Shown piece by piece: positions 13,400 to 58,095 of a stretch of 64,000 bases of DNA. Position 1 is the stretch's first letter. Each line of letters starts with the position of its first letter. The translations under genes and the position numbers were made by a program. The stretch is from Owenia fusiformis (Eukaryota; Annelida; Polychaeta; Sabellida; Oweniidae), in assembly GCA_903813345.2 (NCBI GenBank), contig CAIIXF020000010.1, forward strand, positions 25,816,425 to 25,880,424, read 5' to 3'. Below the pieces are notes generated by a model. That model was not told the origin of the DNA and did no database searches. It worked only from the letters and a program-made list of their open reading frames with translations.

Positions 13400-14785
13400 G
13401 AATATATTAATGAACCAGCAGCATACAATATCAACAAAATTAACAAAATACATATTTGTTGTGAACTGGTAATCAAGAATTTCATTGGAGTTGAAAGTAT
13501 AGTCTTACAATATTATGATTCAATGTTCTATTTTGTACAGTAAAACAAAGCAGATCGATTACTCTAGTACGTGAAAATGTTAAGTGTACCACTGTACCCG
13601 TACCAAAAATGTATGAAATGATAGCCTAGTATAGTAATCTGAAGAATCTACTATTTCTACAACAGATTTCTGAAATGGTTTTACTTCATGGTCTGTACAA
13701 ACAATAATGAATATATATTACAACCCTCGTCTTGGCCTATACACATACACACACTCTTATTACATGAGAGCCTTATACAGTTAGTCTTTTGGATGGTCCC
13801 TCGGAGGCAGAAACCAACCATGTGTTCGCCAAGGGTCATTTATAAGAGCCCTACTATTTTAAGCAGGAGAAGCGGCACTGATCTGGGATCTACTCTGATT
13901 GGCGGATTCTATTAGTAATGATTAGATATTACACCTTGGGTACAAGGTATGAATACTCAAATTGTGAAAATAATAAATAATTGCTCATCAACATTGTTCA
14001 AGTCCGAGCTATTCTTATTTTGAATTCTATGTTTGAAACTGGCTTGACGAATTGTTCCCCTCCCTGATTGTGGTCCGTTACAGCGACTGGATTGATGACA
14101 CTCTCCTCCCAATAGGTGGCAGTGAAGATAAAACAATAACAAGCCATATATCGAAATACTTGACACTAAAACTTTGAATGAATGGAAGATAATTGTTCGA
14201 ATATTGTTGTTTCAAATTAATTTCCGACAAATTCAGCGAATGTGGCATCAAGATCGGTACTGATTTGGTGGTATTTCTCCTTCTCAGCAAGGAGTTCATC
14301 TGAAACAAACAAAAAGGTTCACTTATAATTTTCCATAATGCAATATTTTGCCAAACAATTATTAACAATATTTAAGCTGGAATTTAGGCTGAATTAACTC
14401 ATTAGATAGAACCGTTAATTATGCTAACCATCTGGTTATGTGGGTTTCAAACTGTTTTGCTTGGTAATCCCTCCTTTGGTTACTATGGTGACTCACATGT
14501 AGCTCAGTGCAAACAATTCATTGTGCTTTATTCAACTCAATAATCTTACTCAAGAATTTTATTTTACAAAGACGTTCATATTCATTATGAATGGCAATTC
14601 ATGTACTGTGTTACAAGCAGGTCCTACTTCTATTGTACGCTGGATGCCAGAAACAGAACCGTGCATTGAGGTTATCATGTTTATTATTTACAATATTAAC
14701 AAAAAGAAAATACATTTTGCTGGCACAATAAAAAAAAATTGGATAACAGCTGAGAGCTCTATCACATGTGCTCTAAGTGTCATTC
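13400..14785 (-). repeat. Duplicated terminal-exon block, distal copy
   Basis: Co-linear with 20475-22700: intron end, exon 9-4, and 3' UTR. The segment 14045-14192 is identical to 21140-21287 over 148 bp. The position matching the AATAAA of the other copy reads AATGAA here (13486-13481, minus strand). Confidence 0.85.
14217..14299 (-). CDS. Tropomyosin exon 9-4 (alternative terminal)
   Basis: 83 nt to stop. The acceptor is GTTTGTTTCAG. It encodes [20 protein letters not shown] then FAEFVGN. It is a duplicate of exon 9-3 with five amino-acid changes in the middle and an unchanged C-terminus. Being the last exon of the gene, its use requires bypassing three earlier terminal exons. Confidence 0.92.
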
Positions 14786-29700: not shown

Positions 29701-32700
29701 ATTGATAGATAACAATTCAAACAAAGATCATTTAAGATTTACTACCTTCATTAAGTCCAACTGAGTCTCACATCCAAGGTTAATACAGAACTAGCTTTTG
29801 TAATTAGCCATCAGGCTTAATATCAACTGTGGATGTTCTTGAACCTCAGATCTTGACAAAGTTGCCCAAGTCTCTGGTCCTGAAACTCACTCATGCATTC
29901 AACCCTGAAATATAACATGCGGGAAAGCTGCTGCCATCTATCTATCGCTACGCTGGTTAGCTCATGCTGAACACAGCACAGGGAGGGAGTATGCCACATG
30001 GAACAGTCCATGTGGGAGGAGCTAATTCTGGCACAGAACAGCCAGAATCAAATCCTTCAGTGCATTGTAGTGCAAACATGGTCAATGTATCGACCATGAG
30101 GTGTTTTATATACAGGGTAGCTAAAATAAACATGGGACAAGCCATTATGATGACATGCGGTACGCTACCTTCCAGTCGGTCAACTTCTTTCTGCAATTTG
30201 GTAACAGTTCTTTCAGCTTCTGTTGCTCGGTGTTCAGCCTAAACATATATAAACATCATGAAATCTGTAAAACTACAAAATTCTGTACCTCAAAGATTGC
30301 TCCACTGGAATACAACACAATATAAGTTAAACATTTCTTCCATAAGATGCCTATGTGATCAAACAGAATGTATAGTACTAACGTGAGAATATTCAAAATC
30401 TAAAGCAGGTATTTGTTTCATTTCTTTTGTTTTCCCAAATAATAGTAAGAAACCTATACTGACAATTTGAGTAATACTCACATCTTTAAGTCTGGCTGTA
30501 AGATCTCTGATAGTTTCTTCATAACTGTCCTCTCTCTGTGAAGCCTGTAAAGTAAAACTCATAGCTTTAGCATGGGGTGATACCACCAAGCCAGAAAAAC
30601 AAAAGCATGCATGAGTAAGATAGTACTGTTAGAGATGTATTATATTTGATAAAGGTTTGTATAAAATGCTTCATTAAGATGATTTTGTCACTAAATTACA
30701 ATAAAATGATTTCTTCATTCAGAACAGCATTCAGAAATAATCGGTGTTCTAAGGTATAAGGAAAAACACAATCCCTCTCTTTGCAGTACCATATGCCAAC
30801 TAGGTTTATGTGGATGGCTTTATTTTCTTCATCTTAATTTAAATCTTTAAACCCATGATGGTTCTCCTATATTTTGAAAAATACTTCAAAACATATTTCT
30901 ATTTAAATAGGTCATACTCTCAGATACATTGTAAGAGATCATGCTATCTTTGCTTGAATGGAGTACATCAACTGCAAAACCAGAGAACCCACTTTTTGGA
31001 CAATTACCTAACACTATTCCAATTTTAGAGAGTATAGGTTATGTACTATGAAATATATTGCATCTCAAAGACTAGACAGAGTATTTTGAATAATCAGTTC
31101 TGTTTCTATATTTATATGTAATTTCCAAGCAAACATTTGGTCTGCCCACATTAACTGTCAGTAGCAACTGCTTCAACAATTCAAATAGCAAATCTTGAGC
31201 TTGTAGGAGGTACAGTATGAAAAAGTCTCATACTTCAGATTCAGGCAATTCAGGTGAAATACATTAGCTGAGCACTACCAGTGAAACTAAATATATCCAA
31301 AGGCCTTGGATCATTTAGGGTCAGAAATCCATGATTACTCCAGAGATATAACCCTAACATTTTTGTTATTTTGTCCTCAAAAGTCTGAGCTATTTTCTAA
31401 ACAATATTCATCATCCTAGTTTTAACCCTAGGATTTGAAAAAATGCTATGCCTATTATTAGATCCAAATTCATTTAAATGTTATCTGACTACAAAGGTCT
31501 AGTACATGTGATATAATTTGACAATTGGAAATCAAATCCACACAAGGGAGGCTTCATGCAAGGGTGCTTAATTTACCTCTTGTTCAGAAATTTCCAGGGA
31601 TTTCATGTTATTACCAACAACCTTCAATTCTTCTTCTAGTTCAAGGATCTTACTGTAAAATTGTACATAAATGAATGATTAAAACATGTGACACTATGGT
31701 CACTGTTTGCTCCATTGTTAGTGGGATACTTGCTCATTCCATTCATGCAAACAAACACATTATCATGATGCGGGGAGGGGGGGGGGTTACTGCCCCTCCA
31801 TCCATCTTATTCCCAATGTATCAGTGACCAATAGGACTCCAACAACAATAGAACCCGCCTTTTAGCAGGACCCCTTGGCATACTAGTAAATGTAGGCCCC
31901 TTGTACTCACCTTCTCTTCCTGTACTTCTAATGATCGGAGATTGTTAGTTACAACATGCAACTCTTCTTCAAGCTCCCTTAATTTTCTGTAAAAACATCA
32001 CAAATTCAAACCATGCACAATTCAAAAACACAAGCTGTTATATATCTATACAAAACAGTCAATTAGAACAATGAATAAACGAGGATCTTAGTTATTATCC
32101 CGGGAACACCATGTTGGTAATCCCCTAAGATTTTTAACTTATATTCATCTTTGAGTATTTATCACTAACTGGTAAAATGTTATCTTCAAATGCAAGACAT
32201 TCTGGGTAAGGATATTACTCGAGTCTCATATAAAATGCAGGTTATATAAATGTATAAATAACTGTATTAATAATCGTTAGTTTATCCTGAATGTCAATAA
32301 AAACAGTAATAATGTTAGAAGTTAGTCAAACATGAAGCAAAACATTACACACATGCTAACTAAATAAGCAAATATTAAAGATCTTCAAAGTTGAACATTT
32401 TCCAAGGAATCATAATACTGATCACATGACTTCGTGTTATGGGGTAGAACATGAAATCAGTAATTTCTTTAGAAAAGAATCAACTTTAAAATAAGAATAA
32501 TTTCAAAGAATACATCAAAGAAGGAAAGAAAATCTTTATTGACAGTTTCAAACACTCATACCTATTTGAAATTCTAAGTTGGTAAGGCACAGTCACATGC
32601 AATGTAAAGAAGATAGAAAAGCATCATCACTAAAAAGTTCTTTCAAAGACATCTAGAGTTACTGTTCAATCAAAAGCTGTTTTAAAATCAGAAAGTTTAA

Positions 32701-35700
32701 AACGTGCATTGAATTCTAACACTATACACTCAGAAACAAACAGGGGAGATGGTAAAAGGAGCAAAAGTGACAGGTTAACATATATGTATGTATATAAGAT
32801 AAGATTGCATGAATATATAGACAAGCAGCCTGACACCTAGATTTATAATAACTCACGACTCAGCTGAATCTGCTCTTTCTTCACTTCGCTCTAAATCAGT
32901 CTCTAACATCAACAATTTACGAGCAGCCTGAATTAAATATCAAAATTATATGTAGAAACATTTAATCTATCTTTATTTTTATTTATGATACCATAATCGA
33001 AGCTCCAATGGGACGAGTACTCGGCAGACTTTCATTGTTTCAAGTTTACCCATTCAACTTTTTATAGCAAAAACATATGAAAGCTGGGTAAGGAGTACTC
33101 TCCAAAGAGGTTCAATGGCATAACAAGGCATTCTCAATAAAGGGGATAACTCACGCCTCAGCAGATTCAAGTCTGGCCTCAGCTCTCTCCAAGTCAACTT
33201 CTGTGATAGCCAGTTTACGGGCAGCCTAAAGACACAACATACAAGTTGCATACCATACCAACAAGACAGGGACACAACATCTAATCATAGCTAGTTGCTC
33301 ATTTTTAAATGTCAGTCTTTTTCTTGGTGATTTAATCTGATCATAGATTTTGTATTTTTAATTATGATTTTCTATTTATTATTGACTCATCAATTCATCA
33401 GGAAATATAAAAACAGAATCACATGATAAAAATGTAGAGAAACAACATCAGAATCTTTTAATCAGATTGATATATATATCTCCCTAAAATAGATTTAGCT
33501 TGCATGCTGATCTAATCACAAGGGTTAATGCAACATGCTTAGTGCGGAGTAGACTAGGAATGCTGGAATATTAGTGGTATATACTGAGTATATGTTGGTA
33601 TGATATCAACAATTACATGTTGTATGTACATGTTATATTTCATTGGGTCAAGAATCATGCAACAGTTGAAAGGTTATCAATTGGTAAAATATCTTCATTT
33701 GTCATAAAATTCATTAATATTTGTCTCAAAAGTCATGCTTACATTACATTCTCAATGTTATACATGTTCTTAATAAAATGAGTTAATGAGTTTGGCATGA
33801 TTTCCAAAATGCATTTACTAAAGTACCTAAAATATTTATGTTAAATGTACATGCAATACAAATGTTTAGGAAAATGGGTGTTCAAACATCAAACACAGAA
33901 TGAAAGATAAATGTTTATCTAAACTGCTCTCATTTCTAGCCTTCATGTGAAACATATGAACTGAGAACAGTTTATACTAAAGCATTTCCCACTTCAACAG
34001 AATTACATTCCTCAAGGAACAAACCTTTTCAAAATATAATCAAATAATGTCAGATTAAATCCTTATCTGAACAGTAAACATGAAAATCTTTTTTCTCCAA
34101 TTATGTCCTCTTAACAGAATTTATTATTTTAACTCTTAGTCTGATTTGTTGAAATGCGAATTGAAATACATCTATATGCATAGTTTTCAGCCAAAATATT
34201 GGATATATATTTTAACAATTGTTCCACGAGAAGTTATCTCCTTTAAGATGGTATCAATATTTGGGCTGAATATCACAATAAAAACTACAATAAAACACAA
34301 TGTTAAGCTGTAACCTGAAAAAGGCCATTAGTAAAATATTATTAATATTGACATATAACTACATGAACATGTGTATGTTTTATAGGGATTGTATTTGGTG
34401 ATGTATTGTTGTAATTTGTATTTTAACAAAATTGTTCAGCAACTAACTTTTGTAGTTGTAGGTTATTGCAGTTTTAAATGTTGAAATATTTTGCCCCATG
34501 TACATTTTTTACTGTATATGTAAGTACGGTATGTGTGAAGTGTTTCTTGAAGGTATTTTGAATATTGTGTTTTATGATTGTAAATATAAGTGTGATAGAT
34601 AAGATGGACCTAAATCCGAGGATATTCAGAGTTCTTGGTGTATTTTCTTTCAATTGATGGTTAATGCTTCAGTAATAAAATTCATTCAAATATGTGGAGC
34701 ATTTCTGCATGTATAAATAAACAGCCATGTGATACATTAAGTCTCGCCAGTTAAAATGACTATACTTGTCAGTTACTTATTCATCAGATATTTTAGATAA
34801 AACACATGTCACTAAGGACATACATATAGCAGGAGTATTTGGCTAGATGACTGTGTGCACTATGACACAGAATGAACTAATGTTAAATGTCAATGTGTTA
34901 TTATTTACTGAACAGAAGGTCAAGTAGATAGATAGACCACAAGAAATCTATACACAATTGCTTAACTTATCCCAGCAACCACAAATATGCCTTATCCACC
35001 CCCTAAATATGGCCAGGATGCTGCTAAGCATTCATTGGATATGAGCCAAATTCCACTACAATTAAAACAGAACTAACAATCTTTACACTAGAAAATATGT
35101 GTCATTAAATCAAGATTTACATCCTATTTTCGAAGTACTTCTAATCAAAATAGAATTTCACATTTGAATGGCTCATTCAGAATTTGGTGCAGGAGATGGA
35201 TAGGTCAAATTCAATATTTTTCATGATGGGTCAATCGAATATAACACTGAAGTGTCTCATCAGGTGCATAGATGGTCGGAAGGGACTTGATGACACATCA
35301 ATCAAAATGGGTCACCATATAATCCAGGTATTGTGTCACCAAACAAAAGGACATTGCCTCAAAATATCAGGAATATGAAGAAAGATAACCCATGTGGTTT
35401 TGTTCCAGTATAGTGTATAGAGAGATAAAGGGTACAAGGCTTATCAGCGAGGCTCTTGAAGCAAGAGATAAGGCCCACAAAACAGGGAGTGGAGGCTAAA
35501 GTGGACACTAGAATCAGATAGTTTTCCATTGAATGACCTTAGGTGTAAACACCCTGGACTTTGGACTACATAGAGTGAATATTGAACAGTTTTTAGCATA
35601 TGATGATGAGATGAGCAGCTCATATGCATGCCGAACACTGGATACAGCTAGTAATGATGTGACAGATTAGTTATTAGAAAAAATGAAGAATGAAGTCAAC

Positions 35701-38700
35701 TAGGCACCAGAAGCTAAATTCTATATTTTCTATCCCATCCATGCTGATAAAATTTGTATTGACCAAAGTAGTTCTCGATTAATGATAGTACTGTACATCC
35801 TTGTACATGATGCAAGCAACATATCAAATATTAATTAACGATGCTGTATGAGTTCATTCATAATTCCAAAAGAAGCTTTCCAATATCCAGACATAAGTAG
35901 TGTATATAAAGAGACATTGACCAATCAGCTTTGATGTAGATACTTCAGGCATTTCTATGCTCACTGGGAAAAGCATTCTCTGATAAGGATGTTTATGAAA
36001 TACAAATGAAAGATAAAATATAGCAATGCTCAAACTTTGCGAGGTAATGCACCAAATAATAAAAACCAGCAATCTACAGAGACATGAAATAAATGGGCCT
36101 ATTAAGGAAACCTTATTTGGTGAAGACATAACCATAAGAGCCAAATAACCTCCAGATAAATCCAACATCTGATAGATAACCCCTGTTCCCAGAATAGCCA
36201 AACATGGTGTAATTGGTGTTGAATGTTGGCAACATATGATAGACGATATGATAGCTATAGCAGATGAGGTGCAGTGAAAACTACCTGACATGAACAAACT
36301 ATTTTGAGCCACAACATCCTGTTTGCTTGCTAATTGACGACTAAGATGTTATTGTGGTTGCTTATATATCCCAACACAAGCATGACATTGTGAAGATTCA
36401 TACTTGCAAAGATGCACTTGAGTGGCTTGTTGTGTGATGTGATGTGTGACACTTGGAAGTTGCACTTAAATGCAAAATGAAATTTCTACAATTGCTACTA
36501 ACTGAATAAAAACTGCTATTCAATGAACAACATGCGAAACCATGCGACTTTAATGTGGGAATCTAACTAGACTGTGGTCTAGTATTAAGTAAAGGTCACC
36601 CAGAAGAAGTCTCTTCCCAATGTGTACTGCTTTTATAAAATGCAACATTTATGGGTAAATGAACCTCCTTTGAATGACCACTTAATTAAAGAGAGGTGAG
36701 AGTTTGAATGTTGACATCAAATTGCTTAATGTCACTGTGATAGAGAAACAGGAGTTTTTAAGAATGTTTGGTGATATCAGTTGATGTCTCAATGTGGGCC
36801 TGGGATCTAAGTTTGTTGTGAAATACGATATCCATCTTGTTTACTATGTTTAGGGTCGAATATGTTTTGCATTTCACAACAATAGAATCGAAGTTCAATG
36901 TTTATGAAGTTGAGTTTTCACACACATGTAGAAAAAGCCACAATATCTCTTCTCTCATGTCAGATCCATGCAGCCATGACGCACATATATGTTGCATGAG
37001 GACTGCATGACCAAGTGTAGACGCATAACGGTCATGCAGTCACGCACACATATCTGAGTCATGACTGCATGTGTTTACTAGGTGTGCTGAGAATTGGATC
37101 AACACACCATGCGTCGCACACTGGTCATGCAGTCACCTCATCGTATTTCCGATCAGCATCTTCAGCAATAGTTGTGAAGCTATCAAGATCTCTCTCCAAC
37201 TGGCCGATTCTGGTCTCATCTTCTAAGGCCTTGTTGGTTAACACCTTGCTCATTCTACAGTTGTCAAAATAAGAGAAATCAGTGCTACATGGCTACATGG
37301 AAAGATAGAGACAGATTAGGATGGGGGAATCCATGCAACAAGCCCTTGCATTTCATGCACCGTCACCTCATCATATTTTTTGTCAGCATCCTCTGCAATA
37401 TATTTGGCCTCTTTTAGTTGTTCTTCTAGGGCATCTATTCTTTCATCATCAGCCAAGCTCCTGCTTTCAAGCACTTTGCGTCCTCTACAGAGAATTACAG
37501 ACACAGTAGGATACAGACAATGATACGTCACAACATATATCCACAACATACCAGTCTTACATCCTAGGATTAGCATCATAACTTCAGATAATTTTACATG
37601 GTATAATATGACTAACTAAGCCTCAGATGTAGGACTTTTTAAACATTATATTTGTAATCTGCAATCTGCATCATATGCCACGTCAGAAGGAATGGTGAAT
37701 AGATATCCTGTAATGGAAAAACATTCAAATCATACACCTCATCAACCTGTTGATGGATTTTTTCCATTGAAGGTCTATGTTGTGAGAACAGCTCTTTAAT
37801 CTGATGGTTTGATGATTTAACCCAGGACTCATAATTTTTGGTTAAACTGTCAAAATCTGATTGATTTGCTGTTCAAGTTCAAGCGACCATTTCCTACCTC
37901 ATCATATTTTCTTTCAGCTTCATGAGCACTCTCTGTTGCTTCTTTAACCATTTGTTCAAGTACTTCTACCCTATCTTCATCTACAGTGTTGCGGTTTTCA
38001 AGCACTTTCCTAGCCCTGGGCACAAATATAACACATCACACCATGCATGGTTAGTTAAACTGGCATCATCACATGTATCATGTTTTCACTTGTTAAAATA
38101 GGAGACATGCGCAACAAGAATGATTTCTGTTGCAAGAACAGAGAAAAGGCATTTAAGAAAACAGCAGAATAATGTAAGGGAGAAAGAAATAAAGACTTGG
38201 TTAAAATTGAGATTGAGAAAGAAAACTATAAGGAAAGAAAACTACTGTAGTTTAAAAATGACATGCATGAAGGTATTCATATTATCAAAGCAGGTAAAAT
38301 ATCTTAAAGTAAAATTACTTTAAAACTTTGTAAGTCACACCTTATGACATTACGAGCCTCATTTGATAACACATGTATGGTTGGGAGCAAGATCCGAATT
38401 TAACTGATATTCTTGTGCTTAAAACATGTACAATGTATAAGAAGGCGTTGGTAAGCCAGACATGGTTTTTAAGTTTTTAAACCGCTGTGTATACAGCTAT
38501 ACAAAAATGTGTAGATTTTTCAAGTAGCATACGACACACAATAGAAATCTCCTAAGTACATAGGGTACCTGAATATAAATGTTTAACACAACTCAAATAC
38601 TACAAGTCAATATTGTACATTTTAATCCAAACAGGACACATATAAAAGTTCTGATAGCAAATTGGCACCAAGTAAAGGGCTTTACTAGAAACAACTTAAA

Positions 38701-41700
38701 AGAACCACAAAAAGTATTTGAAATTATATCAATAGATAGAACTCTCAATAGAAAATCTGATCTGTATCACATTTAAATTATTCATATCAAAAACATTGAT
38801 TAATAAAGTTCCAAATACTTTGAACATTTTTCATGATGAATTTCAAACATAATTTACAGAACAGGTAATACTAATATGAAGCTGTACATACATGTATAAA
38901 GATCTATGAATGACATGTTGCTCAACCCAAGGCTATACTAGTACAGTGTAAACTAATGAAGTCATATTCATAATTGAGGTTAATAACAAAATGTAATCAC
39001 ATCATTGCTGGACAAATTATCATTTTATTGTTTCCCAGTTCTAAATTAGATAGCGTGATGTTGCATTTTTTTAATTCAGGACAATGAAATGTGAATACTA
39101 TATTTTCTTTCTAGCCCCAAATGCTATTGGAATGTTGCCACAAAATGAATGATACTTAGTGTTAAGAAACCTAATGTGATACATTTTCTGGTTTGGGCTC
39201 ATTAAAATTGTCTTTGGCAGTGACATATAAGTATATGTACTGCACCTAAAACTTTTACTAATTGTCACATTCGTTGGTCCCTCTTCAAAAGAGGAGACAC
39301 AAAAGATTTTCCTTATAAGGACAAAATATTTCTCAAGATGCAGTTCGCGGAGGAACAAATTCATACTTCCTTGTTTTCCCCCATAGGTTTAACATGGGGA
39401 TTTTCACAGCTATTTTCCCATCGATATATTCATTCATATTCCCATATGGGAGTGCAGAAAAAATTATCAGAAACAATTGATCTTTAGCGTGCGGGTGTAA
39501 AAACAAAATTGTGTTATTAGTTTGATATAGAACTTTCGGTCACGCAAATAGCTACGAAAAATGTATCGTTGGAAAATATTGACCAATCAAATTTTGTCCT
39601 TTTTGAGGGCTTTTTAAGTACATATTTTGTACCTTCTCGATTAAAAACCCAACCACGAAAGGCTTAATTATGAGTGTTTAAGATCAAAGAATAGTAAGTG
39701 GGTGAGTGGGTACTGCAGGTAAAACCTAAGTGTGTCTCAAAAAACAAGCATTTTGAAATTGGAAGTGGAAATGTTACTGAGCTGATGCATCAAATTTGAC
39801 AAAATACATATCTGTTGATCCTTACTATCATTATTATCAAGATTAGTGTCAGCCTTCTTGGTAAGCTGATTAGAAAAGTATTTATACCAAGTGGATCAAA
39901 AATTACATAATTTTGCTATCTGGTCTGGTAACATTAAATGAATTAACAATTAACTTGTGCATATTATTAGGGCAGAAAATGCTCATTGTAACACATGAAT
40001 GCATAAAAGCAAAGATCATTTGGTTAAGAAAAATACTGATATATGCTTGAGAGTGCTAAAAATACTAGGGATGTTTTCTTGGAATACTGACTTGTAAAAT
40101 ATAAAACAAGAATAATATTGAAATTTGTCATTTTTTATAATACTTGCTATTATGAATCGTTGAGTTAACATTCATCAAAAAGAAGTCAAAAGTGGTGCAT
40201 TATTTTGGAAGCAAAGCCCCTTACACGTCAACTGATTTAACAGCAGGGACACAGGGATAATACCCGGTTGTATATTGGGCCAAATTGACCACAACACAAA
40301 TAAAAGATACAAGTGCTTTTATATAAATACGATATAGAAAATAGAAAAGAAGATAGTTAAACGTAAGAATAAGAGAATATGACAAAAAGAAATTTGAGGA
40401 TTTTTTGCCCAAAAAATATATTTGGCAAATTACAAATGTTTTACTTACAACATGAATCAATATCCAAAGATTATATAATATTGAATTTGTAACCAGCAAT
40501 ACATAATTACACTATTTAAACAGGATAAATGATCGTCATTTAAGTTAAAATATATGAAAATAATGTTTACCTCTCGCTCTCATCTGCAGCTTTGGATGCT
40601 TCTTCCAATTTTTCTGTGGTGGATTGGAGTCTGGTTTCAGTATCTCCTAAGTCATCTTCAAGCAGACGGATTCTCCTAGTGAGACCAGCTACCTCAGTTT
40701 CAGCCTACAAAACATAAAAATGGCCTTTAAATATGTTGTTCATGATGGAAAATCCAAATATTTCAAAAGCAAGAACTTATGATTTTAGATTGGTACACCA
40801 TGCTGGGAAATCTATTAGTGCTGCTCTTAAAACAGCAAGCTTTGTTTAATGGTTGTATAATACTTTCTTGAAGAGTGTACAATGTGCCCCATAAACCTAA
40901 AACAGGCTGGGCATAAGCTATACAATTAATAAATAATAAATAAATATACCCACAATACAATTAGTACAAAGTAAAAAGGTTGATGAATCACAAGGTGCAG
41001 AACAAAAACTTTTCAAAGAAGAAGACTGATGTACAGTATTCACTGTAGAAAAAATCAGGTTGTGCTGACTGTTTATTAAAATCTACAAGACAAAGTCCCA
41101 AGTAAAATATACTCTAGTTGTAAAATACTATTTATAAATGCTATTTATAAATAACATGTAATATGGAATTTGAACTCATAATGTTTGCTAAGACAACATA
41201 TTCTGGTCTCTTTCTACAATCAGAGTAAACATCTTCATTTACTAATGTTTAATAGGATTATATGATTATCTATGGGAAAGTTATAATTCCAACTTTGGTC
41301 TGAACTATTTCATTTCCCAAGACTTTCAAAATCCTGCATATTCTCTGTTTATTTTTTACTATATTATTATATATATTGTGATGGTGCTTTGTCTGTTTTG
41401 AGGTATGTTACAGACATTTCTAATGGTAACTGCTTGTTCTACATTTTATGGCATTTAGCAAGGGGTGCTATATGTTTGCTATAATTACCCTCGTTCAACC
41501 TGGTAAATGCCAAAAGTCAATGTTTGAAGTTCAACTTTCAACAATTTCCATGTACATTTGCTACGCCTTTATATGAATGTTTTAATACTGAAAGTTAGTA
41601 CTATGCAGCCTTATCTTATATTCATAAAAGTTTCAAATCAAAAGTTGAAATAAATTATAATATGAGCCTTTTTATTGAGAATAAAGTATAGAGTCACACT

Positions 41701-44700: not shown

Positions 44701-47700
44701 ATCTGTTTTCGGTTTCTTCACCCTCCTTGGTGTCTGAGAAGGCGATTCAATTGTCATAAGACGATGATAAACTTTCGAGTTGAAATCTCGATCTCAATAT
44801 GGCTGCTGTTATTTATTGTAATTTCGTTTTTCGCTTCACCTAGAGTTTTACTTTTACACAATCATTACCCAGAATGCATCTACACATGGGGAAAAAAATT
44901 GTTTCCAGAAAAATTCTTATACTTCTTCAATTATCAAGCGTTTGACGTGTGTAAGGTAGGATTAAATACATTATCGATGAAGAGCATATTCTAATACATA
45001 ATTTGTGTGATTTTGGTTGCCTAAACAGGCCAGGAAAGCATTTCCCTCAATTTACAACCGGGAAGTGTGTACGACCCTAGTATGCAAGAAAATAACAAAA
45101 AATAAATATCCAAATTATCAAAAAATAATGACAAATAAATCATACGATGGTCGGATTTATATGACTACTTACATGTGGCTTACCCCTCCCACAAATCCAA
45201 CATTGCCCTACTGAAGGCAATCAACAATTTGACATGTATAGTAATTATAATCAAAATTGATAAAGAAAATGCAAGTGAAGATATCCACTGGAGGCAAACT
45301 GTCAAAATCAATAGATTCAAAAATATGAGAATATGACAGAATTAGATGAGTCTATGAGAAACCTTGAGTGCCAAACTGACAAAATTGGAAATAGGAAGTG
45401 AATCACCATGAGCAAATGTTGGTGATTGTGCAGTAAGTACACCACCATTATCAATCTAACTTGGCAAAAAGATGCATCAAATATCACCGAATACATATGG
45501 CCTTTCGAAAGTAGTAAAACGTTATAAAGACCGGCAAAATATTAGAGGTTTATTACGATACAAAAAATTAAAAAGTTCCAGAAAACATACATCTGCTCGC
45601 TTCCTCTTTTCTTCTACAAGGTCCTGTTCCCTCTCTTCTACTAAGTCTTTTGCAGTATCCAACTCATCCCGAAGAGTTTTCATTTTAGTTTTCAATGCCG
45701 ATAAGACATTTGCGCCTGATGATCCCTTAGACATGATGAAAGTTTATTTTGAGGGTAATATCAATCCAAGATGTATTCAGATCAAAGATGGCTGCACCGC
45801 AAGCCAAACAACATTCAATTGCTATTGCGCGAGTGACAATAGTGCGATCGATATGATTGATCCAAATATTAATTATTCTGTTTTATTCACTTTCCACTTG
45901 TTCATGAGATATCTAAGTTACTTTCTAATTTGTTCTTTATATCTAAAAATGTCAACTGCAAACTTGAAAATCTGTTCAGTAAATGTGTCACCGTGGCGAA
46001 GTGATATAGCTAAACTGAATTGACCTAAGGTCAAATTGAGAAAAGCACACCTGATTGCTATTATGTTATTTGATCTCCCTCCCTAAATACACAGGTGCGA
46101 TTACGACAGACGACGCATTTTTAAGGCAGACGACACATGTTAAAGCCACAGAAAAAATTTAAATTGTCGATCGAAATCATTATTATACATTATGTCACAT
46201 GAAATATTGTAATGTTTTCTATTTAGGCATTGTTATTGTTTGGTGAATAAACATAGTCAATTAGGTTTTCCGGAGGTTTTCATTAGGATTAATCATTGCA
46301 ACTTACAGTTGAATTTATGTTTTTATGATTTGATTCCCCTTGTTCTGAGTTCTGTTTACTGGGGGTTTATTGAAACATGTTATGTAGTATCAGGGGTAGG
46401 ATCAGGCATAGGCCTCTATTTTTATCGCCTAATCTCAGTTTTCAAGAAAATTATCTCTCAAAAACAAATACCTGGGATGTCTAATACAGACACCGAATGG
46501 AGTCTCAAAACGAAATCTTCCTCCCAATCTCTGCACCAAAGAAAAAAGAGCATGTTGTATACACCACTCGTTGGTCCAGGCCAATGCAGTTATATGTGTA
46601 TGGGGAGGGGGTGAGTAAAATGCAAGAAAAAAAACAAAAATGATATTTATTTTTTAACTACTGACTGTAAATATTACTGAAAACCTGGAAATATTGAATA
46701 TATAAAATAGGTTTTGGATAGTGGGTCTAATTATTAAATGCTGGATGTTCAGTGCCTAGATTTCTGACAGTAATCAAAGTTCCAAAATATTTCTGTACCT
46801 GGCTGCAGATTAGTAAAGTAAGCAGCTGTAAACCATAGACGCTAAACTATTGCAACTAAAAATAAATATATGCCTACGCCTATGAAGTCAGACAGGGATG
46901 GTATCAAAATATAAGAATAGCTTATTAGCAATGCCTGGCCCTAATGAATCCTATCAACCCCCCCGTCAACCCCATACCCATTGTCTTATATAACATCATG
47001 TTGTTCTTACCCTTCTCAAATTTGCGTAGACATTTTGGATTTCTGTGCCAATTATTGTAAATTTAATTATAGTATTTGAGTTGACCCCTAATTGAAGACA
47101 AGGAACGAACCCCCTCCTTCTTGACCGCTGTGGTCTCTCTGGTTCATCGGGGAGATCTTCAATGTCCGAGAAAAGTGGATCATTATTATGAATTATTTTG
47201 TCTAACTCAGTAGTCGGACAAAACACACTACCCTCAGGCTCCGGTCTAATGTCAAGCTGATTTTTGGAATCATTGTTGGAAGATTTAGCAAGTTTTTTAA
47301 TTTCTTTATCTTGTCGTCTCTTTCTTCTACGCTCTTTATATTCTGTCTTTTCTTCTTTTGTCATGCCTTCATATTTGTCGGTCTTTTTCCTTTTCTTCTT
47401 CTTTTTGACTTTAATGTCTTGTTCACTGTTAAGTGATTCTGTGGATTGCGTTTTATTAATTGCACTGGTTTCTGTATGTTTTGACAGGTCCCCACATGCG
47501 CATCTTGCAGCGGAAGTACCATCATTATTTATGTCCCGACATTCATGGGTTGTATTCAGGTGAGGTTTGATGGGTATAGTGCCCCCTTCGGCGTCCATGT
47601 TGCCCTCACTCTCAGAATCCTGAAGGCAAAGGAACCCAGAGTTAACCTCGTCAAATTGCCTCACCCTAAACTACGCAAAGTTTTTATTCTACGTACCGAT

Positions 47701-50207
47701 AATAAAATATTAAAATGAGGGGAGTAAGTATTCAATATGGAACAGCGTTGATTTTCCTATTCAACTCTTTCCGCCGAGACTGGTGTACATTCCATACGTT
47801 ACATTCCATATAAGGTGTACTGACGTCATGAGTAATCAAAGTTTTTAACAAATCCTAAAAGTTTTTTATCCTTAGTCCTAAAACTGTCAACATCCGCAGG
47901 ATAAATGCTCCTTTATTCCATGTTAAATGTCGATATGTCTTCGGAAGTCGATTCTATTTATCATTAAACTCCTATGGTTGGCATTGGCAAGTCATGATAC
48001 AGCGGTGTGGAATTTGCTATCTCGCCAGTTGTTTTTACCTCATGATCTTTACCAGAAGTGTTATATTAAGCCAGGGTGTACAGTACAAGGCTCCAATTTG
48101 CAGCTTGCTCCTGGGTTATTTCGGTATCCCATTTCTCAGCATAAACAAAATTTCACTAAACATAAACTTTGATCCTAGTTGCTAAATCCAATAAACTTTT
48201 TCAATGAATGAATGATAGACACTAATAGTTGGCAAGTGGTATTTTTGGCTTGTATAAAAATATTAAAGTACTTTAAAGTATGGTTTTAACATCTCACACT
48301 GAAGTCTAACTCTTATCAGCCCCAATCGGGCGTACATCATTTAAGATATGGTTTATAATAAAATCGATCAATTTTTATGTTGAAATAATAACCAATGCTG
48401 ATAATTAAGACCATTTAGTCATAGAGGTATGATGTGATTATTAAATCTGTTAATAATTAATTGTATAGTTTTGCATTGATGGTCATTTTAAAAGTAATAG
48501 TCTTAATAATGATTTTTTAATTCATTTAAAGATGTTCTTCTCCCCCTACTTCAACAACAGTTGAAGTAGATAGGGGGAGGGGTCTAGGGTACATTATAAT
48601 TAATCCAAAATCCGTTTGATTCCTTGAATTCAGGTTCATGCGACCAAAAACAAAATAAGATACGAACAGATCAGTATGATTAAAACGTTTCGTTGAGAGG
48701 GGGAAGTCTCTGGGTAGCTGGGAACATACAGTAGATACTAGATAGGGTTGGGATTCGCGGGAAACTTTAAGAAATTGATTTCACTTACATCTGTGAGTCT
48801 TTTTTCTTTGGTTTCTAGTTGGTTGTTGGCTTCAGCTAACTGTTCTTGAGCTTGGTCCAGTTCATTTTCTAATAATGTTACTCTCTTCTGTAAGTTAGCG
48901 AGCTCCTCTTCTTGCTGGAAGACAGAAAATAAAAAAAACTAATTATGAATCTTGTAACAACAAAACTGATCTAATATGATATAAGTGAGCAATATAGGGG
49001 CATAGATAAAGTAAACTGAATTGTCCATCTTAATCAAGATCTTTAAAGAACAAAGGGAGCATAAAGTTATGTTTGAGTGACTCTTTTTAGGCTGGGGGGG
49101 GGGGGTTGATATACCAAGTATGATATACCAAAAAATGAAAATAAAAATGAAAACAATCACATTTGGATTCAATATTTTATCTGTCACAAATATATCCTAT
49201 ATTTTAATATAGGATATATGAACAGTAAATATCTAAGTGTCTAAGATAATTGTAAAAATATTCTGCAAATGTAATTCAAAATGGCGGCTATGCGATAATT
49301 GGCATTAATTATGTATGTGCTAAGAGGGGGTGAGGTAAGTTTATGGAAAAGCAATATGATTTGCGAAACACTGCCAAATGTTAGGGGTCATATATCAAAC
49401 ATGGCGGATATTGGTTTAAATATAGCATCAGTGGCAGATATGCTTATCTTCCGAACAGTTATAATCTCTTAATCTCATAATTTGATGAGTAAAATGATAT
49501 GCTTTCAATTAACCACTGCATTAAATATAGCATATTTTAGATGGCTTTAGATAAGACCGTATCTAGATAAAATTAATTAAAGGCCCAACTTTTGTTTTTC
49601 TAATTTTCGAGTAGTGTGTAATGGCAAAGAAGAACCCCATAAGTTTCTAAATTTTTACTGTTTGCTTCACTTTATGCTTCTTTCGGCAGAATCCAAGCAC
49701 CCCTCCCCAAAAGGTTCAAAATTCAAATCAAATACACCAAGTGTTTTGAAGATTCTGAATTTCCCGTTTTATAACAGTTATTCAAATGAATTTGTTTTTA
49801 TTGCATAAGCTTAGACGTTAACCATTAGTACATGTAATATATCAAAATTAATAATACCCTAAAATGCTCTCAAGTGACCTATGAAACGAAGGTCGTGACC
49901 TAATTAATTTGATTCATCTGGGTGATCAAATCAAAGTAAGTTTTTCGGCAAATAAAAATAACTTTTGAAGGAATATTTTGCTGAGTTAGTATACTTTTAA
50001 ACGTTCTGAATTATATGTTAAGCCGATTTTAAACTAAACAAAGTGTGTGTGTAGGGGGGGGGGGGGGGGTTAATAAAAATGTACATTTCTTACCTTGCTT
50101 GATTTCTGTTCGAAATCTTTCAACTGTTGGTCTAGCTGATCTGCTTTGTCCAAAGCATTCTCCTTCTCAGACTTCATAGCCTGCATTTTCTTTTTAATGG
50201 CATCCAT
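14217..50207 (-). CDS. Tropomyosin gene with multiple alternative exon sets
   Basis: The canonical path uses exons 1a, 2, 3, one each of exons 4, 5, 6 and 8, exon 7, and one exon 9. Exon lengths are 114, 126, 134, 118, 71, 76, 63, 70 and 83 nt, matching the classical tropomyosin exon plan, and total 284 residues. The protein begins [12 protein letters not shown], is an uninterrupted heptad coiled coil, and contains family hallmarks [29 protein letters not shown] and [18 protein letters not shown]. Tropomyosin dimers polymerise along actin filaments, controlling myosin access in muscle and filament identity in other cells. A short form from exon 1b would be 252 residues. Alternatives: two N-termini x 3 x 2 x 2 x 2 x 4 gives 192 possible products if independent. 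Double inclusion of any alternative pair shifts the frame, enforcing exclusivity. Confidence 0.97.
14790..15035 (+). pseudogene. Mariner/IS630-type transposase relic, 3' part
   Basis: The + frame contains [20 protein letters not shown] followed by [13 protein letters not shown]. This resembles the NPxDFFLWGYLK region near the last catalytic residue of Tc1/mariner/IS630 transposases. Only a short segment survives, and it begins exactly where the duplicated exon block ends. Assignment is by motif memory only. Confidence 0.4.
15410..15690 (+). pseudogene. Mariner-type transposase relic
   Basis: The + frame gives [13 protein letters not shown], an in-frame stop, then [10 protein letters not shown]. 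This resembles the SPDLAPSDYHLF..FxSDEEV region of mariner transposases. Further on, [11 protein letters not shown] resembles the CIxxxGDYFEK end. Stops and frame changes interrupt it, so it is dead. Confidence 0.5.
15700..19320. other. Tropomyosin intron/3' region, mostly repeats
   Basis: Apart from repeat A (16121-16452) and a segment near 17885-18270 that resembles 53385-53745 in the same orientation, no gene is seen. The open frames at 16763-17167 (minus) and 18343-18720 (plus) show no recognisable similarity. Confidence 0.5.
16121..16452 (-). repeat. Interspersed repeat A, copy 1
   Basis: Inverted relative to 53036-53342. Shared landmarks include GGTGCAACAATTAGTG, TTTCAGCTGATATT, a GGTGGATCTTAAAA-like segment and AATTTACACTTCTTAATGCT. 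Moderately diverged, non-coding. Confidence 0.75.
19325..20256. mobile_element. Foldback element carrying a nested insertion
   Basis: Outer inverted ends match over about 30 bp (ATGTGTTC, then CGTTTGGGCATCCGG). Weaker inverted similarity extends to about 130 bp (ATATTGACGTA and AACTATTTACAAAA on both arms). The tandem-module element at 19465-19948 lies inside. No target duplication was resolved. Confidence 0.5.
19465..19948 (+). mobile_element. Tandem-module element (copy 3), degraded
   Basis: Contains repeated GGCGGCCATTNTGAAATT-like modules, a short GGACGG remnant, and the family 3' end GTTCGGCGGGAT (19933-19944). The left partner is poorly preserved. Same family as 2670-3442 and 59433-60421. 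Confidence 0.5.
20475..22700 (-). repeat. Duplicated terminal-exon block, proximal copy
   Basis: Matches 13400-14785 but is longer, with about 0.8 kb of extra sequence between roughly 21560 and 22390 and a small extra segment near 20796-20845. It carries exon 9-3 and its 3' UTR. Confidence 0.85.
21308..21390 (-). CDS. Tropomyosin exon 9-3 (alternative terminal)
   Basis: 83 nt to stop. The acceptor is GTTTGTTTCAG. It encodes [20 protein letters not shown] then FAEFVGN. It sits in a block duplicated at 13.4-14.8 kb. A minus-strand AATAAA is at 20549-20544. Confidence 0.94.
21391..25554 (-). other. Introns and 3' UTRs between terminal exons 9-1, 9-2 and 9-3
   Basis: Outside exon 9-2 and the duplicated block I see no further exon or element in these stretches. 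Confidence 0.5.
23576..23658 (-). CDS. Tropomyosin exon 9-2 (alternative terminal)
   Basis: 83 nt to stop. The acceptor is TATATTGCAG. It encodes [20 protein letters not shown] then FTEILGY, the version nearest the common muscle C-terminus. A possible AATAAA lies at 22622-22627 on the minus strand. Confidence 0.94.
25555..25637 (-). CDS. Tropomyosin exon 9-1 (alternative terminal)
   Basis: 83 nt to stop, entered in phase 1 after the acceptor CATTTTGCAG. It encodes [20 protein letters not shown] then FTELQGL and a TAA stop. It is the most divergent C-terminus, lacking the usual final GY. A TTTATT at 24722-24727 (AATAAA on the minus strand) is a possible poly(A) signal. Confidence 0.92.
25638..29625 (-). 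other. Intron between exon 8-2 and exon 9-1
   Basis: About 4 kb of AT-rich intron without recognised exons. The open frames here show no similarity and no splice-compatible heptad sequence. Confidence 0.55.
29626..29695 (-). CDS. Tropomyosin exon 8-2 (alternative)
   Basis: 70 nt, same phases as exon 8-1. The acceptor is TCAATCATAG and the donor GAAGGTAGA. It encodes [20 protein letters not shown] then QAE, strongly diverged from exon 8-1 after AEHR and containing a cysteine. Confidence 0.9.
30169..30238 (-). CDS. Tropomyosin exon 8-1 (alternative)
   Basis: 70 nt, phase 0 to 1. The acceptor is TATGTTTAG and the donor GAAGGTAGC. It encodes [20 protein letters not shown] then RLE. Confidence 0.94.
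30482..30544 (-). CDS. Tropomyosin exon 7
   Basis: 63 nt, phase 0/0. The acceptor is CTTTACAG and the donor GATGTGAGT. It encodes [20 protein letters not shown] then D. Only one version was found. Confidence 0.96.
30545..31576 (-). other. Intron between exon 6-2 and exon 7
   Basis: About 1.0 kb of AT-rich intron; nothing recognised. Confidence 0.6.
31577..31652 (-). CDS. Tropomyosin exon 6-2 (alternative)
   Basis: 76 nt. The acceptor is AATTTTACAG and the donor GAGGTAAAT. It encodes [20 protein letters not shown] then ISEQE, nearly invariant across muscle tropomyosins. Confidence 0.95.
31911..31986 (-). CDS. Tropomyosin exon 6-1 (alternative)
   Basis: 76 nt. The acceptor is TTTTTACAG and the donor AAGGTGAGT. 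It encodes [20 protein letters not shown] then VQEEK, the less conserved version. Confidence 0.93.
32857..32927 (-). CDS. Tropomyosin exon 5-2 (alternative)
   Basis: 71 nt. The acceptor is TTTAATTCAG and the donor GTCGTGAGT. It encodes [20 protein letters not shown] then SAES. Same phase as exon 5-1; including both would shift the frame. Confidence 0.94.
33155..33225 (-). CDS. Tropomyosin exon 5-1 (alternative)
   Basis: 71 nt. The acceptor is GTCTTTAG and the donor GGCGTGAGT, phase 0 to 2. It encodes [20 protein letters not shown], the classic invertebrate sequence. Confidence 0.95.
33226..37136 (-). other. Intron between exon 4-3 and exon 5-1
   Basis: AT-rich intron of about 3.9 kb. The open frames here (for example 35854-36312) lack recognisable similarity. 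Nothing else seen. Confidence 0.55.
37137..37254 (-). CDS. Tropomyosin exon 4-3 (alternative)
   Basis: 118 nt. The acceptor is ACAACTGTAG and the donor GAGGTGACT. It encodes [20 protein letters not shown] through [11 protein letters not shown]. It follows exon 4-2 after an intron of only 112 nt. The motif GGTCATGCAGTCAC spanning its donor recurs about 90 bp downstream in the intron. Confidence 0.92.
37367..37484 (-). CDS. Tropomyosin exon 4-2 (alternative)
   Basis: 118 nt. The acceptor is TTCTCTGTAG and the donor GAGGTGACG. It encodes [20 protein letters not shown] through [11 protein letters not shown], the version closest to published invertebrate muscle tropomyosins as I recall them. Confidence 0.95.
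37898..38015 (-). CDS. Tropomyosin exon 4-1 (alternative)
   Basis: 118 nt. The acceptor is TTTGTGCCCAG and the donor GAGGTAGGA. It encodes [20 protein letters not shown] through HEAERKYDE. It is the most divergent of the three exons 4 in its middle part. Confidence 0.93.
38016..40570 (-). other. Intron between exon 3 and exon 4-1
   Basis: AT-rich intron. No exon, RNA gene or clear mobile element seen. Confidence 0.6.
40571..40704 (-). CDS. Tropomyosin exon 3
   Basis: 134 nt. The acceptor is TTTTGTAG and the donor GAGGTAAAC, phase 0 to 2. It encodes [20 protein letters not shown] through [13 protein letters not shown]. All isoforms pass through it. Confidence 0.96.
40705..45590 (-). other. 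Intron between exon 1b and exon 3
   Basis: About 4.9 kb of AT-rich intron. I see no further exon or RNA gene. The open frame on the + strand at 44563-44994 has no recognisable similarity and is probably chance. Confidence 0.6.
45591..45734 (-). CDS. Tropomyosin exon 1b (short isoform N-terminus)
   Basis: 48 codons beginning [17 protein letters not shown] and ending EEKRKRAD. The donor is GATGTATGT, phase 0. It matches the position, size and character (short serine-rich start, then heptads) of the alternative first exon used for low-molecular-weight tropomyosins from an internal promoter. Confidence 0.9.
45735..47010 (-). promoter_or_regulatory. Presumed promoter region of short tropomyosin isoforms
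   Basis: The sequence just upstream of exon 1b must hold the internal promoter if exon 1b is a first exon. I see no diagnostic TATA or CArG box. The + strand open frames here (45472-46023, 46240-46614) look like chance. Confidence 0.25.
47011..47619 (-). CDS. Candidate tropomyosin head exon, 203 codons, phase 0/0
   Basis: An uninterrupted 609-nt frame is bounded by a strong acceptor (TTCCTTTGCCTTCAG) and a strong donor (GAGAAGGGTAAGAA). Entry and exit are both phase 0, so it can join exon 2 to exon 3 or serve as an alternative start into exon 3. An internal ATG (47598, context AACATGG) would give 196 residues. The product is not coiled coil: a polar N-terminal part with CACGD, a very basic block ([26 protein letters not shown]), an acidic stretch ([15 protein letters not shown]), then SRRRG and a hydrophobic C-terminal part. 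I recognise no domain. It lies in the same slot as exon 1b. It could instead belong to a nested gene, but no other compatible exon is visible nearby. Confidence 0.6.
47620..48788 (-). other. Intron between exon 2 and the candidate head exon
   Basis: AT-rich, with no recognised exon. A minus-strand GGTACGTAG near 47697 is a possible donor of a small upstream untranslated exon, but this is weak. Confidence 0.4.
48789..48914 (-). CDS. Tropomyosin exon 2
   Basis: 42 codons from [19 protein letters not shown] to KEKRLTD. The acceptor is CTGTCTTCCAG and the donor GATGTAAGT, phase 0 at both ends. The size is exactly that of canonical exon 2. Confidence 0.95.
48915..50093 (-). other. Intron 1 of tropomyosin
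   Basis: Contains poly-G tracts near 49096 and 50054. No exon seen. Confidence 0.6.
50094..50207 (-). CDS. Tropomyosin exon 1a (long isoform N-terminus)
   Basis: Encodes 38 residues beginning [20 protein letters not shown], the near-universal start of long tropomyosins that forms the head-to-tail overlap. The donor is AAGGTAAGA, and it ends in phase 0. Confidence 0.96.
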
Positions 50208-54499: not shown

Positions 54500-57400
54500 T
54501 TCATGTATATCAAAGTCAATGTTGTACCACAAGTTTCACATTGATAGTCCATGTCACAAAGTCCTTATACACCATAGTCCATATCACAAAGTCCGTGTAC
54601 TCAATAGTTCATGCATCACACAGTCCTTATACACCATAGTCCATATCACAATGTACGTGTACTCGATAGTTCATGCATCACACAGTCCTTATACACCATA
54701 GTCCATATCACAAAGTCTGTGTACTCGATAGTTCATGCATCACACAGTCCTTATACACCATAGTCCATATCACAAAGTCTGTGTACTCGATAATTCATGC
54801 ATCACACAGTCCTTATACACCATAGTCCATATCACAAAGTCTGTGTACTCGATAGTTCATGCATCACACAGTCCTTATACACCATAGTCCATATCACAAA
54901 GTCTGTGTACTCGATAGTTCATGCATCACACAGTCCTTATACACCATAGTCCATATCACAAAGTCTGTGTACTCGATAGTTCATGCATCATACAGTCGTT
55001 ATACGCCATAGTCCATATCACAAAGTCTGTGTACTCGATAGTTCATGCACCACACAGTCCTTATACACCATAGTCCATATCACAAAGTCTGTGTACTCGA
55101 TAGTTCATGCATCACACAGTCCTTATACACCATAGTCCATGTACTCGATAGTTCATGCACCACACAGTCCTTATACACCATAGTCCATATCACAAAGTCC
55201 ATGTACTCGATAGTTCATGCACCACACAGTCCTTATACACCATAGTCCATATCACAAAGTCCTTGTACTCGATAGTTCATGCACCACACAGTCCTTATAC
55301 ACCATAGTCCATATCACAATGTACGTGTACTCGATAGTTCATGCATCACACAGTCCTTATACACCATAGTCCATATCACAAAGTCTGTGTACTCGATAGT
55401 TCATGCATCACACAGTCCTTATACACCATAGTCCATATCACAAAGTCTGTGTACTCGATAGTTCATGCATCACACAGTCCTTATACACCATAGTCCATAT
55501 CACAAAGTCCGTGTACTCAATAGTTCATGCATCACACAGTCCTTATACACCATAGTCCATATCACAAAGTCCGTGTACTCAATAGTTCATGCATCACACA
55601 GTCCTTATACACCATAGTCCATATCACAATGTACGTGTATTCGATAGTTCATGCATCACACAGTCCTTATACACCATAGTCCATATCACAAAGTCTGTGT
55701 ACTCGATAGTTCATGCACCACACAGTCCTTATACACCATAGTCCATATCACAAAATCTGTGTACTCGATAGTTGATGCATCATACAGTTCTTATACACCA
55801 TAGTCCATATCACAAAGTCTGTGTACTCGATAGTTCATGCATCACACAGTCCTTATACGCCATAGTCCATATCACAAAGTCTGTGTACTCAATAGTTCAT
55901 GCACCACACAGTCCTTATACACCATAGTCCATATCACAAAATCTGTGTATTCGATAGTTCATGCATCACACAGTCCTTATACACCATAGTCCATATCACA
56001 AAGTCCGTGTACTCAATAGTTCATGCACCACACAGTCCTTATACACCATAGTCCATATCACAAAATCTGTGTACTCGATAGTTCATGCATCACACAGTCC
56101 TTATACACCATAGTCCATATCACAAAGTCTGTGTACTCGATAGTTCATGCATCACACAGTCCTTATACACCATAGTCCATATCACAAAATCTGTGTACTC
56201 GATAGTTCATGCACCACACAGTCCTTATGCACCATAGTCCATATCACAAAGTCTGTGTACTCGATAGTTCATGCATCACACAGTCCTTATACACCATAGT
56301 CCATATCACAAAGTCTGCGTACTCGATAGTTCATGCATCATACAGTCCCTATACACCATAGTCCATATCACAAAATCTGTGTACTCGATAGTTCATGCAC
56401 CACACAGTCCTTATACACCATAGTCCATATCACAAAATCTGTGTACTCGATAGTTGATGCATCATACAGTTCTTATACACCATAGTCCATATCACAAAGT
56501 CTGTGTACTCAATAGTTCATGCACCACACAGTCCTTATACACCATAGTCCATATCACAAAGTCCGTGTACTCGATAGTTCATGCACCACACAGTCCTTAT
56601 ACACCATAGTCCATATCACAAAGTCCGTGTACTCGATAGTTCATGCACCACACAGTCCTTATACACCATAGTCCATATCACAAAGTCTGTGTACTCGATA
56701 GTTCATGCATCACACAGTCCTTATACACCATAGTCCATATCACAAAGTCCGTGTACTCGATAGTTCATGCACCACACAGTCCTTATACACCATAGTCCAT
56801 ATCACAAAGTCTGTGTACTCGATAATTCATGCATCACATAGTCCTTATACACCATAGTCCATATCACAAAGTCCGTGTACTCGATAGTTCATGCATCACA
56901 CAGTCCTTATACACCATAGTCCATATCACAAAGTCTGTGTACTCGATAGTCCATGCACCACACCGTCCTTATACACCATAGTCCATATCACAAAATATGT
57001 GTACTCGATAGTTCATGCATCACACAGTCCTTATACACCATAGTCCATATCACAAAGTCTGTGTACTCGATAGTCAATGCACCACACAGTCCTTATACAC
57101 CATAGTCCATATCACAAAATATGTGTACTCGATAGTTCACGCATCACAGTCCTTATACACCATAGTCCATATCACAAAGTCAGTGTACTCGATAGTTCAT
57201 GCATCACACAGTCCTTATACACCATAGTCCATATCACAAAGTCCGTGTATTCGATAGTTCATGCACCACACAGTACTTATAGTCAATATCACAAAGTCTG
57301 TGTACTCGATAGTTCATGCACCACACAGTCCTTATAGTCCATATCACAAAGTCTGTGTACTCGATAGTTCATGCATCACACAGTCCTTATACACCATAGT

Positions 57401-57690
57401 CCATATCACAAAGTCTGTGTACTCGATAGTTCATGCATCACACAGTCCTTATACACCATAGTCCATATCAAAAAGTCCATGTACTCGATAGTTCATGCAT
57501 CACACAGTCCTTATACACCATAGTCCATATCACAAAGTCTGTGTACTCGATAGTTCATGCATCACACAGACCTTATACACCATAGTCCATATCACAAAGT
57601 CTGCGTACTCGATAGTTCATGCACCACACAGTCCTTATACACCATAGTCCATATCACAACATCCGTGTACTCGATAGTTTATGGATCACA
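54500..57690 (+). repeat. 62-bp satellite array (dimer of a 31-bp unit)
   Basis: About fifty head-to-tail copies of a 62-bp unit. Each contains CATAGTCCATATCACAAAGT, GTGTACTCGATAGTTCATGC and ATCACACAGTCCTTATACAC. The two halves (TCACAAAGTC..ATAGTTCATGCA and TCACACAGTC..ATAGTCCATA) are related, so the unit is a diverged dimer of a 31-bp monomer. Copies differ by a few substitutions at recurrent positions. The open frames inside are repeat artefacts. Confidence 0.97.
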
Positions 57691-58095
57691 AAGTCTTTGT
57701 ACTTCATGCTCCATGATGTATGGCATAGTCCTTGTACTTCATACTCCATTTATCACACAGTCCTTTATAGTCCATATATTACATAGTTCTTGTACATCAT
57801 GGTCCATTTATCACATAGTCCTCATACTTAATAGTCAATATATCACAAGGTCCTTGGATCTCACAATCCATATATCCTATAGTTATTGGTCCACATATCA
57901 AATAGTCTGCATAGTTAATAGTCCATTTATCACATAGTCCTTGTACTAATAGTCCATATATGACACTATAGCCTATATAGTCAATATCACAGTCATTGAG
58001 CTTCATAGTCCATGTATCACAAAGTCTTTGTACTTCATAGTCCATGTATCATAAAGGTGCTTGTACTTCATAGCCCATGTATCACATAGTCCTTG
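57690..58095 (+). repeat. Degenerate monomeric part of the satellite
   Basis: Irregular 28-33-bp units (ATCACATAGTCCTTGTACTT, CATAGTCCAT) in the same orientation as the main array, but much more diverged and without the dimer period. Confidence 0.85.

Follow-up and report, generated by a model that had tools for sequence, protein, structure and literature searches.

The question raised by this locus is why a tropomyosin gene of the annelid Owenia fusiformis should hold, between two of its coiled-coil exons, a long in-frame segment which is mostly not coiled coil. The window, i.e., the whole stretch of 64,000 nucleotides analyzed here and to which positions refer, carries the gene on its reverse strand (-). 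Exons 1a, 2, 1b and 3 were located by tblastn with tropomyosin queries and by inspection of the junctions, and the segment in question has been named exon X:

50094..50207, (-): exon 1a
48789..48914, (-): exon 2
47011..47619, (-): exon X, 203 codons, phase 0 at both ends
45591..45734, (-): exon 1b, the alternative first exon of the short isoforms
40571..40704, (-): exon 3, the proposed splice partner of exon X, which starts with AETEVAG
37131-38017, 32850-33225, 31571-31985 and 14223-25647, (-): alternative later tropomyosin exons

The mapping bears out the first-pass annotation, which had placed the segment on the same strand in the slot between exons 2 and 3 where exon 1b also lies, and all junctions flanking this slot are of phase 0. 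The later exons occur in alternative copies, with three of exon 4, two each of exons 5 and 6, and four terminal exons. Away from this gene, two single-exon tropomyosin-like stretches lie about 4 kb apart, L003 (G000:C4:17984318-17984908) and L002 (G000:C4:17979702-17980244); one has an open frame of 201 codons with MQAIRNKMITLKDQL near its start and the other has stops within the match, and the two are probably old and strongly diverged tropomyosin retrocopies. The window also contains, at 54543-57702, a big 62-bp tandem array of about 51 copies in two rows, which opens with a strong GC skew and gives way to arrays of 30-32 bp reaching to about 58.8 kb.

Exon X is a real open-frame segment with splice signals. 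Its 609 nt correspond to 203 codons without a stop, within an open stretch of 224 codons (47670-46996, (-)), and an ATG at 47598, the eighth codon, would give a head of 196 residues. On generic metazoan matrices, the acceptor (...GTTCCTTTGCCTTCAG/GATT) scores 8.26, placing it in the top 0.15% of the AGs of the strand (n = 3358), and the donor (AGG/GTAAGA) scores 5.08, in the top 0.4% of its GTs (n = 3713); for comparison, the values are 8.44 for the exon 2 acceptor, 3.39 for the exon 2 donor and 6.33 for the exon 1a donor. When both strands of the window were scanned for phase-0 open stretches of at least 600 nt with a comparable acceptor and donor, the splice thresholds being set just under the scores of exon X itself, exon X was the sole match, and relaxing the thresholds gave the same outcome. 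No such structure occurred in 12.0 Mb of sequence simulated with an order-4 Markov model from the statistics of the window. The splice ranks and the simulation thus uphold the earlier description of an open 609-nt frame with a strong acceptor and donor and phase 0 at both ends. A transposon or repeat was ruled out, since in the 498-Mb assembly both exon X and the 1.2 kb around it matched only themselves (E up to 0.001, in a DNA search that passes over very common words). Synonymous codon usage was tried and dropped as evidence, since by this measure neither exon X nor the other exons of the gene stand apart from intron: scores were -0.037 for exon X, -0.037 for exons 1a, 2, 1b and 3, and on average -0.050 for introns (sd 0.036, n = 1036 stretches), the coding set being 25 of 30 kinase loci after five with stops in the match had been left out.

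We consider it likely that exon X serves the tropomyosin gene as an alternative first coding exon, that it has a promoter of its own, and that it encodes an atypical-tropomyosin head homologous to that of Drosophila Tm1-I/C (aTm1). Transcription would start from this promoter near 47.8 kb and translation at 47598, and the donor at 47011 would be joined to exon 3 at 40704, with exons 1a, 2 and 1b skipped. The product, of about 400 residues, would begin with a long charged head, followed by a short coiled-coil lead-in and by the tropomyosin rod from residue 81 onward. A cluster of promoter-like motifs is found near 47.8 kb:

47787..47828, (-): promoter-like cluster, its motifs chosen after inspection of the sequence
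47828-47821, (-): CRE, TGACGTCA, the only TGACGTCA of the window
47815-47806, (-): CArG, CCTTATATGG, a motif match
from 47807 and from 47793, (-): two GGAATGT motifs of TEAD type, motif matches

About 200 nt separate the cluster from the first ATG, at 47598, and no other ATG intervenes; the context of this ATG, AACATGG, is good by the usual rules. The full cluster was absent from all 100 windows simulated with an order-3 Markov model, a rate which is optimistic because the motifs were picked after the sequence had been viewed. Exon 1a, within 250 nt before its ATG, has an inverted GGAATG of TEAD type and a TGACGT CRE half site (window 50361 and 50442), much like the cluster. A true first exon has no need of an acceptor as strong as that of exon X, which might be there for an untranslated exon lying further upstream.

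The proposed link to the fly isoform comes from the end of the head:

47011..47082, (-): last 24 codons of exon X, putatively homologous to the end of the Drosophila Tm1-I/C head on the strength of alignment, shuffles and added bits

This tail aligns with the fly sequence SSDTMMKFNIIRNELHNIMNTQLKR/AESEVAA with 10 of 24 residues identical (by eye) and a single one-residue gap; the aligned query then leaves exon X at the donor and runs into exon 3 without a further gap, and the fly junction falls at the same residue. The identities include the polar residues S, T, K, E and N. Joined to exons 3 to 9, the tail scores as a tropomyosin (PF00261, E 3.5e-73). A junction query of 47 residues gave five PDB matches at E up to 10, of which the best three were fly aTm1 chains (E-values of 7.9e-5, 0.01 and 1; the PDB chains are named SD21996p). 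The top rank of a fly chain was itself dropped as evidence: exons 3 and 4 alone already rank 7bjg_A first (97.8 bits as against at most 81.8 for vertebrate chains), so the proper measure is the number of bits gained. Against 7bjg_A the score rises from 97.8 to 116.3 or 115.9 on addition of 20 or 39 residues of the exon X tail (gains of 18.5 and 18.1), as compared with 102.5 for 28 residues of exon 2 (4.7) and 102.0 for 27 residues of exon 1b (4.2). Against 7bjs_C, which spans more of the fly head, exons 3 and 4 alone score 53.4, and the same additions give 71.6 and 76.6 for exon X (gains of 18.2 and 23.2), 58.6 for exon 2 (5.2) and 57.5 for exon 1b (4.1).

The local score of 46 between the exon X tail and the fly segment was reached in none of 100,000 shuffles of the tail, in one of 100,000 shuffles of the fly segment, and in none of 20,000 shuffles of the fly segment when this was compared with the whole of exon X. 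When the window was taken in all six frames as 42,616 overlapping stretches, with stops read as X, the tail scored best, and the next unrelated place reached 36 and contains stops; among the 47 stop-free stretches of 25 residues ending at a good donor the runner-up scored 26. The whole of exon X had no significant match in Pfam or PDB, and neither the 24-residue tail nor the last 57 residues alone matched anything in PDB at E up to 10, as is expected of such short queries. By alignment, gains and shuffles, then, exon X has the conserved end of the head, continuous with the rod, that marks the Tm1-I/C type, and it can be argued from this comparison, which is with one fly protein from about residue 252 of its head onward and covers 24 residues plus the shared junction, that the two head ends are homologous. 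The first-pass annotation had left the choice between an independent and an ancient equivalent of Tm1-I/C and had claimed no homology; the similarity up to the shared start of exon 3 favours the ancient one.

The same residues qualify the earlier description of the exon as non-coiled-coil, which holds for most of its length and fails for the last 20 or so codons. When the heptad register of exon 3 is carried back into the tail, its core positions are occupied by T, F, I, I, V and L, so that five of six are hydrophobic. This register is the best of the seven (the next has four hydrophobic positions), and 905 of 35,240 stop-free 21-mers of the window do as well. The tail may thus be a coiled-coil lead-in which continues the heptads of exon 3. 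A single-sequence AlphaFold model of exon X has a mean pLDDT of 51.9, with 133 of 203 residues below 50, which in a model of this kind is weak evidence for disorder; residues 159-203 are among these, and the model therefore does not by itself favour a helix in the lead-in. The head is long and charged, and the sole confident helix (88-115) is basic, with block pLDDT values of 84-96 over residues 81-110. It lies within one further feature:

47272..47409, (-): basic stretch, residues 71-116 of exon X, with 22 K/R over residues 71-118

This stretch could possibly be an RNA contact or a nuclear signal.

Three other explanations of exon X have to be weighed against an alternative first coding exon of common descent with the fly head. 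We think it unlikely that exon X is a cassette or second exon, whether included in frame as 1a-2-X-3 or joined to an upstream untranslated exon by way of its strong acceptor. That the acceptor about equals that of exon 2 (8.26 vs. 8.44) and that phase 0 at both ends permits inclusion without a frameshift would suit such an exon, but an insert of 203 residues, mostly not coiled coil, would be expected to interrupt the rod where exon 2 meets exon 3, and the promoter-like cluster and the well-placed ATG point to a start at exon X; the version with an untranslated exon, moreover, leaves exon X as the first coding exon. Still less do we favour an unrelated nested gene with a single exon of 200 codons (ATG 47598 to the stop at 46996) or a non-coding chance frame, both taken together being very improbable. 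A stop does stand at the fifth codon beyond the donor, and an AATAAA follows at 46651, some 345 nt further on (by eye, this hexamer being common in AT-rich sequence), but the donor is strong and the similarity to the fly head stops precisely there, while a chance frame is hard to reconcile with its absence from the simulated sequence.

The remaining explanation accepts exon X as real and its head as specific to the lineage, and attributes the resemblance of the last 24 residues to coiled-coil constraint and not to common descent. The match is indeed short, its similarity lies partly in heptad hydrophobics which the 905 window 21-mers equal, and the last 57 residues of exon X alone match nothing in PDB. 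Genuine coiled-coil ends are nevertheless what exons 2 and 1b supply, and these add 4-5 bits where exon X adds 18-23; the junction falls on the same residue and the identities extend to polar positions. Convergence of this kind accordingly receives a low probability from us.

If exon X is such an alternative first coding exon, its product can be set beside several known tropomyosins. Among the products of Drosophila Tm1, Tm1-I/C is described as a unique isoform, which oskar RNA transport requires (PMC10948360, PMC5603733). It is reported to bind RNA and to be mainly of low-complexity sequence (PMC5286366), to attach to a conserved part of the kinesin heavy-chain tail, and to need its disordered N-terminal region for its effect on the motor (PMC10948360). 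In follicle cells basal RNA localization is described as requiring Khc and aTm1 (PMC9606379). In structure 7BJS one Tm1-I/C chain is crystallized together with a pair of kinesin heavy-chain tails (PMC8247605), and the stretch aligned here falls inside the fly chain crystallized with kinesin. In both proteins the junction of a long head with the rod coincides with the first residue of the present exon 3, the last 24-25 head residues are similar and the tropomyosin N-terminus is lacking. They differ in size, the fly head being about 281 residues (from the construct numbers 252-334 and the chain length) as against 196 from the ATG here, and the fly protein, which is described as having a short tropomyosin domain (PMC5286366), being given as 441 residues (PMC10948360) as against about 400. 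In the fly the type is further marked by binding to the kinesin heavy-chain tail, by RNA binding with a role in RNA localization, and by polymers resembling intermediate filaments. Canonical isoforms starting from 1a or 1b belong to the same gene, have the exons from 3 onward in common and use a phase-0 junction, but form a coiled coil from near their first residues and have no long head. The C. elegans isoform LEV-11U, which contains exon 7c, is described as another tropomyosin with an alternative exon unfavourable to coiled coil and to the binding of actin; it differs in that the choice is of an internal exon 7 and not of a head exon, and the excerpted account mentions no kinesin link (PMC10512467). 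Among the literature matches listed, titles and beginnings of abstracts mention no such isoform outside Drosophila, though the discovery and structure papers on Tm1-I/C (Cho 2016 and Dimitrova-Paternoga 2021) may mention conservation in other animals.

Since it would lack the tropomyosin N-terminus, the exon X product should bind actin poorly. If it behaves like the fly protein, it would pair in a coiled coil with the tail of the kinesin-1 heavy chain and help to load RNA onto the motor, and the likeliest function of the isoform, if the homology holds, would be that of a kinesin-1 and RNA adaptor. The genome has two matches to the fly kinesin tail, 89% and 71% identical, the better of which contains one stop by program count.

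The atypical head is thus probably shared by flies and this non-arthropod protostome, which would make the transport form much older than flies. Whether a kinesin-linked atypical tropomyosin was the ancestral isoform of protostomes, possibly an older one still, and neither a fly invention nor a stand-in for intermediate filaments, we regard as evenly balanced. Arthropods were long thought to be without cytoplasmic intermediate filaments. In this annelid a search with the intermediate-filament family, which lamins match as well, found eight matches, seven of them above the cut-off, on contigs C1, C6 and C10, and four are rod starts at different places. Searches run without a positive control gave no match to the R&R cuticle family, which is typical of arthropods, and none to molluscan haemocyanin; a match to the bantam microRNA, a protostome marker, reached 53.2 bits, below its gathering score of 61, and COX1 gave no match. 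Taken together, the filament, cuticle, haemocyanin and bantam results point to a protostome outside the arthropods. A homologous head end outside the arthropods would place the origin of the isoform before the two lineages diverged, would mark the KF-II--E--N lead-in as a conserved part, and would argue against the isoform as a mere replacement for missing intermediate filaments. It would also make the generality of RNA transport by kinesin and tropomyosin simply testable in other phyla; were the isoform ancestral in this way, transport of RNA by a complex of tropomyosin and kinesin-1 would be a general animal mechanism which has so far been studied in one lineage.
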